DNA of 64,000 nucleotides from Elusimicrobia bacterium CG_4_9_14_3_um_filter_62_55 (GTDB taxonomy: Bacteria > Elusimicrobiota > Elusimicrobia > UBA1565): the NCBI GenBank assembly GCA_002790095.1, contig PFUL01000087.1, positions 20,094 through 84,093 on the forward strand. Reading direction: 5' to 3'. Made by a program: the position numbers and the translations under genes. Below are positions 25,028-47,868 of the stretch, piece by piece. Position 1 is the first letter of the stretch; each line of letters starts with the position of its first letter. The notes below the pieces were generated by a model. It ran no database searches. It was not told the origin of the DNA and worked only from the letters and a program-made list of their open reading frames with translations.

Positions 25028-25386
25028 GGGGGTGACTAGCTTCGACAGGATGGTCGCTCTCTGACGGTCGCAGGCCCTGGTTGGCCGAATCCAGGTAAAA
25101 ATTCGTCCAAAAACATAAAAGCCAATACACAACTGGCCTGGGCCACCGCCTAACCCGCGGTAGGTTCACATCGACCCTCCAACGCCCGCTAAGAGGGACC
25201 CGATGTCAACTAGCGGACTGGGCGATTCTTCGCGCGCTTCGTCGAAGGAACGCCGAGACTTAACGGAGCTGGGCACGGGATACTGGTTCGGCGGTTTTCC
25301 CGCGTCGAGACTTAAGCCGAACTAAGCCTGTAGTGGCCTCAGGGACGTTATTCTGGACGCGGGTGCGAATCCCGCCACCTCCACCA
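25028..25386 (+). ncRNA. ssrA: transfer-messenger RNA (tmRNA)
   Basis: A one-piece tmRNA of 359 nt. The 5' end GGGGGTGACTAGCTTCGACA and the 3' end with GGACGCGGGTGCGAATCCCG, CACCTCC, discriminator A and encoded CCA form the alanine-tRNA-like domain. The acceptor arms pair over seven positions with one G-U at position 3, and the T-loop is recognisable. The tag reading frame begins at 25121. It rescues stalled ribosomes together with SmpB, which is not in this window. The downstream diguanylate cyclase gene begins only 65 nt later on the same strand. Confidence 0.97.
25121..25153 (+). other. tmRNA proteolysis-tag reading frame
   Basis: The resume codon GCC is preceded by ATAAAA, aligning with the pre-resume element of E. 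coli tmRNA. The frame encodes ANTQLAWATA followed by TAA, so with the tRNA-borne alanine the tag is AANTQLAWATA. The end ATA differs from the usual LAA or VAA terminus that ClpXP recognises. Confidence 0.8.
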
Positions 25387-43080: not shown

Positions 43081-43181
43081 GGAAGCTGTGAAAAAATCCC
43101 CTTTTTAGCCTATCTGTCGCAGCCGCTCCGTCGAGAGAAATTCGTCGACTTCGCCAAATAGGGGATTTTTTCACAGCTTCC
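43081..43181. repeat. long inverted repeat, hairpin of unknown origin
   Basis: A 22-nt arm at 43081-43102 (starting GGAAGCTGTGAAAAAATCCC) is perfectly inverted at 43160-43181, with 57 nt between. The interior has a small GTCGA/TCGAC stem. It is in the non-coding DNA between greA and the peptide-signalling cassette. It may be a MITE-like or REP-like element, or a bidirectional terminator remnant. Confidence 0.7.
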
Positions 43182-43312: not shown

Positions 43313-43322
43313 GGGTATAGGT

Positions 43323-43430
43323 CACCCTGTAACCGTCGGAATTGGCCGGCGGGCATCCACCGATAGACCTTAAGCTATCGTCACCAGGGAAGGCGTCGGC
43401 TCGTAGAGCCGATACGTTTCTCTGCGACGC
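43323..43430 (+). ncRNA. predicted structured leader RNA upstream of the radical SAM/peptide cassette
   Basis: Several nested pairings are visible. An outer CCCTG (43325-43329)/CAGGG (43385-43389) encloses the hairpin CGATAG/CTATCG (43361-43366, 43375-43380). Next is GCGTCG (43393-43398)/CGACGC (43425-43430) enclosing GCTC-GTA-GAGC (43399-43409). It ends 12 nt before ATG 43443 and no Shine-Dalgarno is visible. I could not match it to a known riboswitch class. Confidence 0.45.
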
Positions 43431-43442
43431 GCTTGAACGACG

Positions 43443-44495
43443 ATGATATCCGCTCTCTTCAGAAGATTGCAGAATCGAATCGAAAACTTCTTACTGAATT
43501 CTGTGGGGAGTCAGAGGACGCTTGTCGCTCAGTTTGACATTACGAACGCCTGCAACTTGAGGTGCGTCCATTGCTACCACCCGCACCACTCAAACCGGGA
43601 CGGAATTGGCCTGCCGGAGTGGAAGAAAATCATTGAAGAGTACTCCGGATTGATGGGGAAACTCCGGCTCGCTCCGTCCTTCGTCTTGTGCGGCGGGGAG
43701 CCGCTTCTAAGCCCGTTCTTGATTCCGATCTTGGACGAGTTGAGTGGCCGCTGGTCCGACGCCCGGATCGCGATCACGACCAATGGGACTCCTCTCGACC
43801 GCGCGATGGTGCGGAGGCTGTCCCGGTACAATACGGCGTTTCAGATTTCTCTCGATGGCCCTGACGCGATCCGCCACGATGCGGTCCGAGGCAGCGGCGC
43901 TTTCGATGCGGCGATGTCGGGGCTGGCTGCGCTGCAGGAGGCGGGACGAAACGCCCGATTTCTGGCAGTCCTTTCGGAAAGATCATCGCATTGGATTGCT
44001 GACTTCTTTGCCGAAGCCGGCAAGCGCCGTGCGGAAGCAATGAATTTCGTTCGCTTTATTTCGCAAGGGGTTGGTCGCGGTTATCGTGAACAGGGGAGGG
44101 ACCGGCCCTTGGGTCCAGTCGAACTGCAGGAAGCGATGACGCGAGTGGCCCGCCTTTCCCGCGAATCAGGCATTCATACGAATACGAATCAACCGCTTTA
44201 CGCCTTGGTCGATCCCGCGCTCGGAGCTCACGGTCAAATGGGCTTTCAGGGAGTGATTGTAGACTATCGTGGCAGGCTCAAGGTTTCGAGTCGCACGGAT
44301 TTCTTCCTGGGAAATATTCTCGAAGAGGGGCTCGAAAATCTATTTTTAAATCATCCGATTATGAAATCTCTCCGATCGGCAAGGATCGAAGGGTGTCATG
44401 GTTGTGTATACTATTCTCGTTGCGGTGGCGATCGGAATTCTTCCTTCGCGGAGTTTGGAAGTTTCCTGAAGAAAGATCCCGGGTGTTGGATTTGA
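43443..44495 (+). CDS. radical SAM enzyme with SPASM-type C-terminal cluster
   Basis: A 350-residue protein. The radical SAM motif CNLRCVHC (Cys37, Cys41, Cys44) follows FDITNA. GGEPLLSP and AITTNGT are standard barrel elements and ISLDGPDAIRHD follows. The C-terminal cysteines have the pattern CX2CX5CX20C (GCHGCVYYSRCGG to PGCW), a SPASM-like auxiliary cluster. The next gene, 23 nt downstream, encodes a small Sec-exported peptide, its obvious candidate substrate. The two genes after that encode an orphan peptide-binding protein and a sensor kinase. Modification chemistry is unknown. The ATG has no good ribosome site; translation may be controlled by the leader. Confidence 0.88.
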   Translation: MISALFRRLQNRIENFLLNSVGSQRTLVAQFDITNACNLRCVHCYHPHHSNRDGIGLPEWKKIIEEYSGLMGKLRLAPSFVLCGGEPLLSPFLIPILDELSGRWSDARIAITTNGTPLDRAMVRRLSRYNTAFQISLDGPDAIRHDAVRGSGAFDAAMSGLAALQEAGRNARFLAVLSERSSHWIADFFAEAGKRRAEAMNFVRFISQGVGRGYREQGRDRPLGPVELQEAMTRVARLSRESGIHTNTNQPLYALVDPALGAHGQMGFQGVIVDYRGRLKVSSRTDFFLGNILEEGLENLFLNHPIMKSLRSARIEGCHGCVYYSRCGGDRNSSFAEFGSFLKKDPGCWI

Positions 44496-44518
44496 CCCGT
44501 AGCGATGGAGTGGAAACA

Positions 44519-44671
44519 ATGGGTAAGTGCAGGAAATTGATCCTTCTGATTTTAACAATCGTTCCATTGGCGTCGGTGTCGTTTGCCGCTCAGGCAGGAA
44601 TGATCGATCGGCCCGTCGCGGGTGGCGACGGGGATACTGGCGACGGCGGCTCTTCGCCGAGCTATCTTTAA
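44519..44671 (+). CDS. candidate radical-SAM substrate: 50-residue Sec-exported Gly/Asp-rich peptide
   Basis: A 50-residue peptide. Residues 1-26 are a good Sec signal (KLILLILTIVPLASVSFA, cleavage after AQA). The mature part GMIDRPVAGGDGDTGDGGSS plus PSYL is small, Gly/Asp/Ser-rich and has a C-terminal Tyr. ATG 44519 has GGAG 9 nt upstream. It is placed between the radical SAM gene and the orphan binding protein. No Cys lies in the mature part, so thioether crosslinks are excluded. The organisation resembles rSAM-RiPP precursors, e.g. the GRRM system, which also has an orphan binding protein (recollection). Precursor status is inferred. Confidence 0.65.
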   Translation: MGKCRKLILLILTIVPLASVSFAAQAGMIDRPVAGGDGDTGDGGSSPSYL

Positions 44672-44701
44672 GCGATAAGTCGCCTCCCCTTCTATACCCG
44701 G

Positions 44702-46234
44702 ATGAAGGGCCGCGCAGCGGTTCTCTTTGTTTTCTCGGCCGTTCTATTCGGAATCTTCCGATCCTATCAGCGCGGCATGCCTCTAAAAGTATTATCGGTT
44801 GGAATCACTGAAGATTGGGGAGCTTTGCACCCCGCGCTGCAGCATTCGGCCTACGGCGACGCCGTCCTTCTCAATCAGTTCGAGCCCTTGGTTCGCATGA
44901 GCCGGAACGGGGTCATCGAACCACTTGCCGCTTCGTCGTGGGAAATTTCTGAGGACCAAAAGACGTTTCGGTTCCAGATCGATTCCAAGCGGCGCTTCTC
45001 CGACGGAACTCCTCTGGCTGCGGCTGATTTTAAGAAGTCATGGGAGGAAGGGCTTCGGCTCAATCCGATTTCGGCCAACAAGTCAGGTATGGATATTCTC
45101 TCCAGCGTTGCCGGATTTTTGGAAAGGGGAAAGAGCGGCGAAATTTCGGGAATCCGGACGCCTGCGCGCGACATTCTGGAGGTCGAGTTTTCGAAGCCGA
45201 TGCGCCGAATTTTGGAGTATTTGCGCGGTGTCCGGTATGCGGCGTTTCGTCAATCCGAAGGGAAGTTGTCCGGTACGGGCGCCTTCATAATCGAAGAGGC
45301 GGACTTCGGAATTAAGATGATCCCCAACGCTTACTTCCAGGGAGAAGGCGCTTCCACCCTGCCGGTTGTAATGCGCCGGGTTCCCTCTGAGGATGTCGCC
45401 GAAAGCCTGCGCTCCGGTTCGGTCGACGGAGTGCTGTATGCATCGACGAAGGATATTCCGGATTGTGATTCAGATGGGGAGTCGACGATCCGCTGCGCCT
45501 TCGGCCAGGAATCCGCTCACGGCATGGTCGCTTTAAACGGCCTTCCGGGGCGTGTTTTTGCGGATGAAAACAATCGGATCGCAGCGCAATTTATCATCTT
45601 GTCAGAATTGGCGAAAGCGGTTCCGGACGCGCTCCAAACAAACCATTTTTCGGTCGATCCCCAGGCTTTCCTGAAATTTCAGGCGGGTCGACTAGAGGAA
45701 GATCAGGCGGTGGAGTTGGTCGGCATGGGAGAATCGCATGTGAACCGGTTGCGTGAGGTTTCCAAGAAGTCGCCTCTTAAGGTCGTCGGGAGCCGCGACT
45801 GCCTGTGGCTCATCGCTTTGCTTCGCGAAGCCGGTATTGTCGTTTCCGAGGATTCGGGGAAAATAGAATTTAACGACGCGCTTGCGATCATCTACAAGAC
45901 GCATGATGCCGACATGCTGCTCGGGCGATTCTCTGTCGGAAATGGCGACCCGGACAGCCTCTACCACATACTGGGACGCGACGGGGCAATCAGAAGCCCG
46001 ATGATGGCGAGGGCGCGCGTTGAGGAACTTATGGAGGAGGGTAGGAGCATCTTGGAGGCGGATAGGCTGGATCCGCATTATAGGAAGGTCTCTCGGGCTT
46101 TGCTGCAATCCGTTCCGTTCGTTCATCTTGGATACAGTTTCGAGACCATCGCCTACAATTTCGCCCGGGTGAGTGTCTCCGATAGTTTCGAAAGTCGAAA
46201 CAGCAACCGCGTCACGATCTTCGAACCGCGGTGA
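44702..46234 (+). CDS. orphan family-5 extracellular solute (peptide)-binding protein
   Basis: A 510-residue protein of the SBP_bac_5 (OppA/DppA-like) fold. The N-terminal hydrophobic segment (AAVLFVFSAVLFGIF) has no lipobox Cys, so it is probably anchored or Sec-cleaved. VLSVGITEDWGALHPALQHS and FEPLVRMSRNGVIEPLAASS start the domain, and RFSDGTPLAAADFKKSWEEG is the characteristic motif. No permease or ATPase gene is nearby, so it is not part of an uptake transporter here. Its gene overlaps the kinase gene by 4 nt, suggesting that it presents a peptide, perhaps the neighbouring one, to the kinase. Confidence 0.87.
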   Translation: MKGRAAVLFVFSAVLFGIFRSYQRGMPLKVLSVGITEDWGALHPALQHSAYGDAVLLNQFEPLVRMSRNGVIEPLAASSWEISEDQKTFRFQIDSKRRFSDGTPLAAADFKKSWEEGLRLNPISANKSGMDILSSVAGFLERGKSGEISGIRTPARDILEVEFSKPMRRILEYLRGVRYAAFRQSEGKLSGTGAFIIEEADFGIKMIPNAYFQGEGASTLPVVMRRVPSEDVAESLRSGSVDGVLYASTKDIPDCDSDGESTIRCAFGQESAHGMVALNGLPGRVFADENNRIAAQFIILSELAKAVPDALQTNHFSVDPQAFLKFQAGRLEEDQAVELVGMGESHVNRLREVSKKSPLKVVGSRDCLWLIALLREAGIVVSEDSGKIEFNDALAIIYKTHDADMLLGRFSVGNGDPDSLYHILGRDGAIRSPMMARARVEELMEEGRSILEADRLDPHYRKVSRALLQSVPFVHLGYSFETIAYNFARVSVSDSFESRNSNRVTIFEPR

Positions 46235-47868
46235 TTAAGCTGCGAAGGTGGGTCGACGGAAACGTGCGTCGCCCTCTGGCGGCGGCGGCGATCGTCGTTG
46301 TCGTACTCCAGGTGGCTAGCGCCTCCGTCTTGCTCGTCCGCGACCGCGACGCACACGATAGAGCCATCGAGCAGGTTGTCGAGGCCGCGCGATTCGGAAT
46401 TCAGCAGCACAACAGGCCCCTCATTGATTCGGCACTGTCGTCCGCGCTACACTCGGGCCGTTTTGCGTTCATCGGCTTGTGCGGCCGGAAAGGCGCGGAG
46501 CTCGTTTTTCCGCCGCGAAGAGGAGACCCCTGCGCGGCTGAGCGGTCGTCGCCCTGGAGCGTCGTCGAACGGCGAAAACTCGCAGTAACTACCGACCATG
46601 CCCTGGTGTATGGGGTTCATCGATACCGGTTCTGGTTGCCGACGGCGGGGTTGGTTGCGATGAATTTCGGATTTCTGCTGGTCGCTGCCCGGATTTTGAT
46701 TCGGGCCGGACGCCGTTTTTCATTGGAAGTTCTTGATCCTCTCACGCTGGGAATTCATTCCGATATTCCGCTTGCTATCACGGAATTGGAAGAGTTGCGG
46801 ATGCGCAACCGCGAATACTTGGCAATGAGCCAAAGGCAGGCGGTCGCATCGGCGATGATGGAAATTAGCACACAGGTGGCTCATGATATCCGCTCTCCGT
46901 TGGCGGCTCTGAAAGCTGCGATATCCGGTCAGAATCCCGATGGAGAGTCACGGGGGGGGCTCATTGGCGCGGCGATTGAAAGGATCGCGTCTATCGCCGA
47001 AGACCTTTTGGCGCGTTCACGAGATGGCGTTGAGAATGCGGCGGCGCTTCCTGCGCGAGTTGAGGAAAGGACGTCGTGCGTCGTTCCGGATTGCGTGGAG
47101 GGATTGTTGGCGGAAAAGAGGATTGGCCTCGGGAATGGAACGCGAATCGACTTAGAGTGGGCCCGGGGAGCGCATGACAGCGACCTCGTCGTACGAGTCG
47201 GACCGGCGGTTATGAAGAGGGTGTTTTCGAATATCATCCAAAACGCGATCGAGGCGCTGGACGGGCGGGGAACCATGTCGATTCGAGGGTATCTGGAAGG
47301 TGCCATGGTCGTCTTGGAGTTTTCTGATACCGGCAAGGGAATTTCTCCCGATTTGTTGGGCCGAATAGCTGAAAAGGGAGTGACGCTCGGGAAAGAAGGC
47401 GGGAACGGCTTAGGTTTGTACCATGCGCGTCGGTGGAGCGAGTCCGAGGGGGGGGAGTTGACGATTCGCTCTCAACCGGGCGAAGGGACGACGATCGTTT
47501 TGAAAATCCCGCAAGAATCCGCTTTAAAGCGGTCGATCGGTGAAGACGCAAAAGGCGACTCCTGTTTGACGGTTTTGGTCGACGACGACGCGCTTGTGCG
47601 CATGGCGTGGAAGACAGCGGCAAAGCGAGCGGGCGCGGAGTTTCGCGCATTCGGAACCCCCGAGGCGTTCTTCGCCGGCGAGGTTCCGACCGACGCGGAG
47701 GTATGCGTCGATTGGCAGATTTCCAAGGGAGAGACCGCCGAAGCGTTTGTTTGGAAGCTGGCCGCGCGGGGCTATGCGAACGTCCGGATTACGACCGGGC
47801 ACGAGGCGAGAGAACTTCCTGCGCTTCCCGTGAAAACCGTCGTTGGCAAAGAGCCGCCCTGGGGCTAA
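46231..47868 (+). CDS. membrane hybrid sensor histidine kinase with compact receiver
   Basis: A 545-residue kinase from GTG 46231 (GTGA overlap). There is a membrane segment at about 12-35, a short periplasmic region (about 36-120) and a second segment at about 130-155 (FWLPTAGLVAMNFGFLLVAA). The H-box is QVAHDIRSPL with His218, the N box is NIIQNAIEAL, and G boxes are DTGKGIS and GNGLGLYH. Residues about 447-545 form a short receiver with VDDDALVRM and Asp494 (VCVDWQIS). The small periplasmic loop suits sensing through a partner such as the adjacent binding protein. No DNA-binding regulator is encoded alongside. Confidence 0.9.
   Translation: MIKLRRWVDGNVRRPLAAAAIVVVVLQVASASVLLVRDRDAHDRAIEQVVEAARFGIQQHNRPLIDSALSSALHSGRFAFIGLCGRKGAELVFPPRRGDPCAAERSSPWSVVERRKLAVTTDHALVYGVHRYRFWLPTAGLVAMNFGFLLVAARILIRAGRRFSLEVLDPLTLGIHSDIPLAITELEELRMRNREYLAMSQRQAVASAMMEISTQVAHDIRSPLAALKAAISGQNPDGESRGGLIGAAIERIASIAEDLLARSRDGVENAAALPARVEERTSCVVPDCVEGLLAEKRIGLGNGTRIDLEWARGAHDSDLVVRVGPAVMKRVFSNIIQNAIEALDGRGTMSIRGYLEGAMVVLEFSDTGKGISPDLLGRIAEKGVTLGKEGGNGLGLYHARRWSESEGGELTIRSQPGEGTTIVLKIPQESALKRSIGEDAKGDSCLTVLVDDDALVRMAWKTAAKRAGAEFRAFGTPEAFFAGEVPTDAEVCVDWQISKGETAEAFVWKLAARGYANVRITTGHEARELPALPVKTVVGKEPPWG

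Follow-up and report, generated by a model that had tools for sequence, protein, structure and literature searches.

The 64,000-nucleotide stretch analysed here (hereafter the window), part of contig PFUL01000087.1 of Elusimicrobia bacterium CG_4_9_14_3_um_filter_62_55, carries a leader RNA with a riboswitch aptamer of the 2'-dG-II (2'-deoxyguanosine) class followed by genes for a radical S-adenosylmethionine (SAM) protein, a short peptide, an OppA-like binding protein and a hybrid histidine kinase (Table 1). Four co-directional genes, the last two overlapping, had been described in an original prediction made from the DNA letters, and all parts were recovered within one base of the positions given there; the kinase gene starts at a GTG within the preceding stop and overlaps the binding-protein gene by 4 nt. 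Loci, genomes and contigs are labelled below with L-, G- and C-numbers, respectively.

Table 1. Features of the cassette in the window.
Feature	Position	Strand	Evidence
2'-dG-II riboswitch aptamer (RF03165)	43322..43392	+	covariance model, 70.7 bits, E 4.2e-16
Hairpin including the 3' strand of aptamer helix P1, competitor of P1, without U-run in the window copy	43385..43424	+	minimum-energy fold
Radical SAM protein, SPASM-like C-terminus, putative peptide maturase, 350 aa	43443..44495	+	PF04055 E 3.6e-19
Precursor peptide, 50 aa, signal-peptide-like, P-x-x-S/A-V/I-x-x-A region	44519..44671	+	motif recurrence
SBP_bac_5 (OppA-like) orphan binding protein, N-terminal hydrophobic segment	44702..46234	+	PF00496 E 2.7e-22
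Hybrid histidine kinase, transmembrane segment - ~100-aa periplasmic domain - transmembrane segment - HisKA - HATPase - receiver	46231..47868	+	Pfam and alignment

Conservation of the gene set was examined in a class sample of 196 genomes and, beyond it, by a pattern scan with one genome per species. The same nine class genomes encode orthologues of both the radical SAM enzyme (50-57% identity) and the binding protein (38-48%), at 10 loci and always side by side, and in all 10 the gap of 210-395 nt between the two genes holds a short open reading frame (ORF) with a common signature. The kinase gene follows that of the binding protein in the ten class loci, overlapping it in several; kinase genes are truncated by contig ends in L076, L078, L082 and L083, the enzyme gene is broken by a TGA in L081 and by a frameshift in L083, and the kinase ORF of L081 is split. 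The pattern scan added the Elusimicrobiales locus L088 and three loci in Bdellovibrionota, and a class-wide search around one of the latter detected relatives in 11 of 144 genomes. Twelve further loci were collected, and in 10 of them the enzyme gene, the gap and the binding-protein gene follow one another as in the class loci, with the kinase next in nine and L242 cut before it; L244 is cut upstream and L245 has no enzyme. In total, Elusimicrobia provide 11 loci, of which L088 is permuted, and Bdellovibrionota 13. In L088, which also contains a second set of enzyme, peptide and binding protein, the order is peptide, binding protein, enzyme and kinase, and since the four genes are kept in spite of the permutation, the set stays together through rearrangement; its recurrence in two phyla, mostly in the same order, argues against chance. 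Pairwise distances among enzymes, binding proteins and kinases are correlated (r 0.77-0.86, 0 of 2000 permutations as high, with shared species history not removed), as would be expected for a co-inherited cassette. The four-gene neighbourhood, whose search in other genomes the original prediction proposed as a check, is conserved across Elusimicrobia and Bdellovibrionota in gene order as well as in the peptide gene. A second pair of binding-protein and kinase genes lies right after the first cassette in L080 (9636-12670), its binding protein resembling those of the YcaO class described below and not its neighbour.

Sister operons behind other 2'-dG-II riboswitches of the phylum keep the peptide, the binding protein and the kinase and carry other maturases. 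In the YcaO class the genes are ordered peptide, binding protein, YcaO and kinase (L117, L165, L131, L179, L197, L203, L205) or peptide, YcaO, binding protein and kinase (L188, L198, L213). PF02624 (YcaO) was matched by L117 (E 7e-8), L131 (E 1e-5) and eight of nine further candidates (E 3e-7 to 2e-3, some under the gathering score), with no match in L194. A short-radical-SAM class comprises eight loci with a peptide of 62-68 aa in the equivalent place and a remote SBP-like protein, the link to the binding proteins having an hhalign probability of 68% and E 5e-5; exceptions to the layout are L201, where the kinase is one gene away, and L217, with one extra gene. L211 is a 2'-dG-II operon in which no enzyme was called. 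Because the enzyme is swapped while the other three parts are retained, the peptide would be both the substrate of the enzyme and the ligand of the binding protein, and this exchange constitutes the strongest sequence argument for both roles. The window's own genome contains in addition a YcaO-type set (L178, G000:C22:33429-34223), with the binding-protein gene preceding that of YcaO, for which no 2'-dG-II match was reported.

A peptide with the motif is present in 24 of 25 sets of radical SAM enzyme, peptide and binding protein (12 in Elusimicrobia and 12 in Bdellovibrionota), and only in L243 was no peptide ORF found. With few exceptions the 24 peptides combine [KR][KRH] close to the N-terminus with a hydrophobic stretch and the pattern P-[IL]-x-[SA]-[VI]-[AS]-[FY]-A-[AS], the Pro and the penultimate Ala being invariant in all of them; this pattern resembles a signal-peptidase I site whose C-region varies unusually little and would direct export. 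In 11 of the 12 Elusimicrobial peptides [QKR]-[SA]-[AS]-L stands right after the motif, a position at which the window copy has diverged, and most Bdellovibrionota peptides end with [AQT]-[LI]-S-[IAG] and a few more residues (e.g., SGALSIGGTF), a tail only suggestively similar to SALSIAQI of Elusimicrobia. Of the exported Gly/Asp-rich peptide originally described, the length of 50 aa and the signal-peptide-like character were confirmed, whereas the Gly/Asp-rich tail turned out to be peculiar to the window copy; when the mature core was compared, as proposed there, conservation was seen in the residues just past the C-region but not in that tail, and the C-region of the signal peptide is itself conserved. 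The arrangement that characterizes ribosomally synthesized and post-translationally modified peptides (RiPPs), a conserved short precursor beside a modifying enzyme, is found in 24 of the 25 sets as well as in the YcaO and short-radical-SAM variants. The short protein might also be a membrane-retained microprotein that tunes the kinase or the binding protein, in which case the latter would sense environmental peptides (e.g., from lysed neighbours) and the enzyme would modify the microprotein or the kinase, a view that agrees with conservation along the peptide being highest in the hydrophobic segment and the C-region and with the dominance of the hydrophobic segment in the YcaO class too. We regard it as unlikely, given the conserved [AS]-x-A at -3 and -1 of the signal-peptidase site, whose final Ala is invariant in all 24 peptides, and the conservation that extends past the cleavage site in Elusimicrobia.

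The enzyme to which the exported peptide is assigned as substrate is a radical SAM protein with a SPASM-like C-terminus and a predicted auxiliary cluster, a putative peptide maturase. The CxxxCxxC motif (C37, C41, C44) is invariant in eight orthologues, as are the C-terminal C318, C321, C327 and C348, which fit a four-Cys SPASM or twitch pattern. Among solved sequences SkfB and an anaerobic sulfatase-maturating enzyme, both modifiers of peptides or proteins, come nearest, and the cassette enzyme stays under all NCBIfam equivalog cut-offs. Nisin-type modified bacteriocins induce their own kinases, and SkfB, the nearest solved enzyme by sequence, acts on the sporulation killing factor; by analogy, the modified peptide could be a bacteriocin-like antimicrobial sensed by the binding protein and the kinase only to raise production or immunity. 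This is very improbable, however, for a cassette with no apparent dedicated ABC exporter or immunity gene, with an export that looks Sec-type and with peptide tails that are short and variable.

The predicted structure of the binding protein (mean predicted local distance difference test, pLDDT, 83) is nearest to MppA, DppE and OppA, with PrgZ lower in the list, and the modelled fold is that of peptide binders. The original prediction had described the protein as devoid of transporter partners and had named a full oligopeptide permease operon next to homologous loci as a finding that would speak against its reading. Among the 14 cassette genomes OppC was undetected in six (some being incomplete metagenome-assembled genomes), is encoded away from the cassette in seven and is near it in G046 only, and no OppC gene was found on the cassette contig of the window. 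Where OppC is undetected, the binding protein would be an orphan sensor. An Opp operon was rejected on the basis of the OppC_N search and contig positions; a plasmid origin was discarded as the plasmid matches are generic binding proteins of at most 27% identity, a viral origin as no relative was confirmed in IMG/VR, and matches in Collinsella and actinobacteria were set aside because they cover the protein only partially. Relatives of SBP_bac_5 proteins include NikA and metallophore binders, and the L075 enzyme has the model for the mycofactocin maturase among its top NCBIfam matches (99 bits), which is in line with the peptide being the source of a metallophore or redox cofactor (cf. pyrroloquinoline quinone, mycofactocin) whose return in loaded form is watched by the binding protein and the kinase, for nutrient or redox sensing and not for communication. 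Such a function is quite unlikely, since the cassette has neither another biosynthetic or uptake gene nor a permease for the loaded carrier, the sister operons replace the enzyme by YcaO and the enzyme scores far under all family cut-offs.

Reporting of a captured peptide would fall to the kinase, in which Pfam detects HATPase_c (E 7e-19) and a weak HisKA domain, the divergent C-terminal receiver being recognized from the alignment and not by Pfam. With its H box, HATPase and receiver all present and a periplasmic domain of ~100 aa, the protein agrees with the hybrid kinase with a small periplasmic loop described earlier. Alignment of 18 cassette kinases (that of the window and 17 others) revealed a common cytoplasmic core with the H box HDIRSPL in most of them (two from Bdellovibrionota keep the His in a diverged box), and the Elusimicrobial receivers end with GKEPPW or similar; in contrast to the common core, the periplasmic domains vary with the enzyme class. 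The sensor was modelled with a mean pLDDT of 80, and a fold search with it gave nothing under E 0.001, the weak matches including WalK, LapD-like and LuxQ domains. In L077, L080 and L097 response regulators of the sigma-54 type lie beside the cassette, where they would be the likeliest partners of the kinase.

The leader RNA noticed originally does exist, although its identity had been missed: with 70.7 bits versus an RF03165 gathering score of 60, a match to the full model (1-71) and agreement in the junction and loop consensus, it is a 2'-dG-II aptamer, predicted to bind 2'-deoxyguanosine selectively. The window's genome has nine RF03165 matches, seven of them above the gathering score, and the riboswitch is present in 75 of the 196 class genomes and upstream of 7 of 11 Elusimicrobial cassettes. 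In the minimum-energy fold of the whole window leader the competing hairpin forms in place of P1. The P1 3' strand contains the start of a hairpin that leads directly into at least four U at 88 of the 125 riboswitch sites examined, an arrangement found at 4 of 125 when the downstream sequence was shuffled; such a terminator is present in six of the seven cassette riboswitches, the exception being the window copy, which has kept the hairpin and misses the U-run. As P1 and the terminator compete for the same strand, ligand binding should block termination, and the excess over shuffled sequence indicates an ON switch, by which 2'-deoxyguanosine should activate the genes. The position of the riboswitch upstream of the genes would put them under the control of a DNA-derived nucleoside.

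On this evidence the cassette is rather probably a self-contained modified-peptide sensing circuit with expression gated by 2'-deoxyguanosine. When cellular 2'-deoxyguanosine rises, plausibly from scavenged or degraded DNA, P1 would stay closed, the competing hairpin would be blocked and the operon transcribed; the radical SAM/SPASM-like enzyme would then modify the short precursor, which would exit via Sec and be cut by signal peptidase after the invariant Ala. The orphan SBP_bac_5 protein would capture the processed peptide in the periplasm and, once loaded, dock on the small domain that the kinase exposes to the periplasm, thereby altering the phosphorelay. What the sequences establish is the riboswitch, the recurrence of the gene set, the motif of the peptide, the lack of a permease and the replacement of the enzyme by YcaO or another radical SAM protein; we infer the modification and its target residue, processing and export, the identity of the ligand, capture and docking, activation of the kinase and the output. 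The original reading of a peptide that is modified, exported, captured and reported to the kinase withstood, as far as sequences can tell, a search for both outcomes that it had named as contrary to it, and the sister operons lend it additional support.

Several observations weigh against the circuit. The alignment of the binding protein to OppA ends before the C-terminal half that contains the peptide-binding Asp of OppA, and in G046 an OppC gene lies 2.4 kb upstream of the cassette orthologue. The distribution in the class is patchy (9 of 196 genomes). Pfam reported no PqqD domain in the four window proteins and the cassette has no gene for a RiPP recognition element or PqqD, a feature that is not universal in the RiPP class. 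The window copy of the riboswitch may work by a different mechanism or have decayed, given its missing U-run, and the mature window peptide has no SALSxAQI segment like that of its relatives. Furthermore, 2'-dG-II was undetected at 4 of 11 Elusimicrobial and all Bdellovibrionota cassettes, and RF03165 gave no match in the three Bdellovibrionota genomes found first.

More tentatively, and with some doubt, a wider picture can be drawn for Elusimicrobia, in which 2'-deoxyguanosine from DNA breakdown, through lysis or uptake, triggers a family of modified-peptide pheromone circuits with a shared kinase core and interchangeable maturases. Peptides, binding proteins and sensor domains would be matched to their maturases (radical SAM/SPASM, short radical SAM or YcaO), and relatives of the radical SAM/SPASM circuit occur in the predatory Bdellovibrio lineage.

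Parts of the cassette have counterparts in known systems. GRRM systems are composed of a radical SAM/SPASM enzyme, a Gly-rich precursor and a transporter-less binding protein, and the cassette is similar to GRRM/GrrA in its enzyme, small precursor and binding protein without transporter; it differs in having a hybrid kinase and a riboswitch in the set, and no GRRM precursor or binding-protein model was reported for it. The GRRM parallel drawn originally did not extend to membership, which was rejected as the enzyme scores 58.9 bits with TIGR04261 (GrrM) against a cut-off of 310 in NCBIfam. The enterococcal OppA homologues PrgZ and TraC are pheromone-binding proteins that share the SBP_bac_5 fold, PrgZ being among both the sequence and the fold matches, but they supply an Opp importer, in place of which the cassette has a kinase. 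Agr, ComQXPA and lantibiotic autoinduction systems likewise unite precursor, modifying enzyme and kinase at one locus; unlike the cassette, they are Gram-positive, their kinase binds the peptide directly and they lack a binding-protein adaptor and a nucleoside riboswitch. In Vibrio, LuxP-LuxQ passes an autoinducer from a periplasmic binding protein to a hybrid kinase, and the periplasmic domain of LuxQ is a weak, non-significant fold match of the cassette kinase sensor (E 0.31); however, autoinducer-2 is not a peptide and LuxP comes from another binding-protein class. In the Vibrio CBP-ChiS system a periplasmic chitin-oligosaccharide-binding protein controls a membrane hybrid sensor kinase, with a response that includes natural transformation (PMC10208484), a similar disposition in which the ligand is nevertheless a chitin oligosaccharide, ChiS binds DNA, and precursor, modifying enzyme and riboswitch are absent. 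Modified-peptide two-component signalling (Agr, ComX, lantibiotics) and signalling from a binding protein to a hybrid kinase (LuxPQ; CBP-ChiS, PMC10208484) are therefore already known kinds.

The 2'-dG-II class was placed in Bacteroidetes (PMC8872408), whereas here it is widespread in Elusimicrobia, and that article makes no mention of cassettes of peptide, enzyme, binding protein and kinase. The open literature searched, in which PMC8872408 was the source for earlier 2'-dG-II gene associations, did not yield a combination of these kinds with a 2'-deoxyguanosine riboswitch and interchangeable maturases; in keeping with the earlier statement that no described system with all four parts was known, the literature search returned no matching system. 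The usual location of the Elusimicrobial cassettes behind a 2'-dG-II riboswitch suggests an undescribed chemical-signalling system linked to DNA breakdown. If the circuit operates as proposed, bacteria with an outer membrane could sense modified peptides by coupling a periplasmic binding protein to a hybrid kinase, the little-understood 2'-dG-II riboswitches would acquire a physiological role, enzyme-precursor pairs from three maturase classes would come with a built-in readout, and DNA-derived nucleosides would be tied to peptide signalling in free-living Elusimicrobia; a cassette related to theirs is present in the Bdellovibrio lineage. The pheromone family, if real, would amount to a RiPP language of Gram-negative-type bacteria based on periplasmic binding proteins.

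A kinase core of the cassette type occurs within the next 6 kb at 28 of the 125 riboswitch sites; in L034 such a core lies near a 2'-dG-II riboswitch without peptide, binding-protein or enzyme partners. The commonest other gene sets encode secreted lipoproteins and large secreted proteins of unknown family. The most frequent pair (L037, L041-L045, L116, L118, L123, L128, L134, L146, L148, L173) consists of a secreted protein or lipoprotein of ~250-320 aa and a secreted protein of ~500 aa, several with HExxH; a Pfam scan of five gave no significant family, and the pair looks like an exported module induced by DNA or lysis. Proteins with a ComEC-type metallo-beta-lactamase domain lie immediately after 2'-dG-II in L046 (1554-2633) and L133 (316-1371), with TIGR00361 scores of 117 and 102 bits, under the cut-off of 190, which is consistent with the ComEC association described for the class (PMC8872408). 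Other genes in this position code for a GTP cyclohydrolase II domain protein (L153:303-953; PF00925 E 5e-54), for a different radical SAM protein together with an APH-family phosphotransferase (L140:451-2645, L168) and for a conserved protein of ~145 aa with its own 2'-dG-II riboswitch (L124:356-790, L159, L132, L164, L169), which is convergent to the cassette in L075 and within the operon in L076 and L179.

In the interval between greA and the riboswitch of the window, a perfect 22-bp inverted repeat (GGAAGCTGTGAAAAAATCCCCT) spans ~100 bp (43081-43181), and a second copy, of 91 bases and 100% identity, forms the first 91 bases of contig C184; it is possibly an element similar to miniature inverted-repeat transposable elements or a repeat that interrupted the assembly. 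The window also contains a transfer-messenger RNA (tmRNA) gene at 25028-25386 (138 bits).

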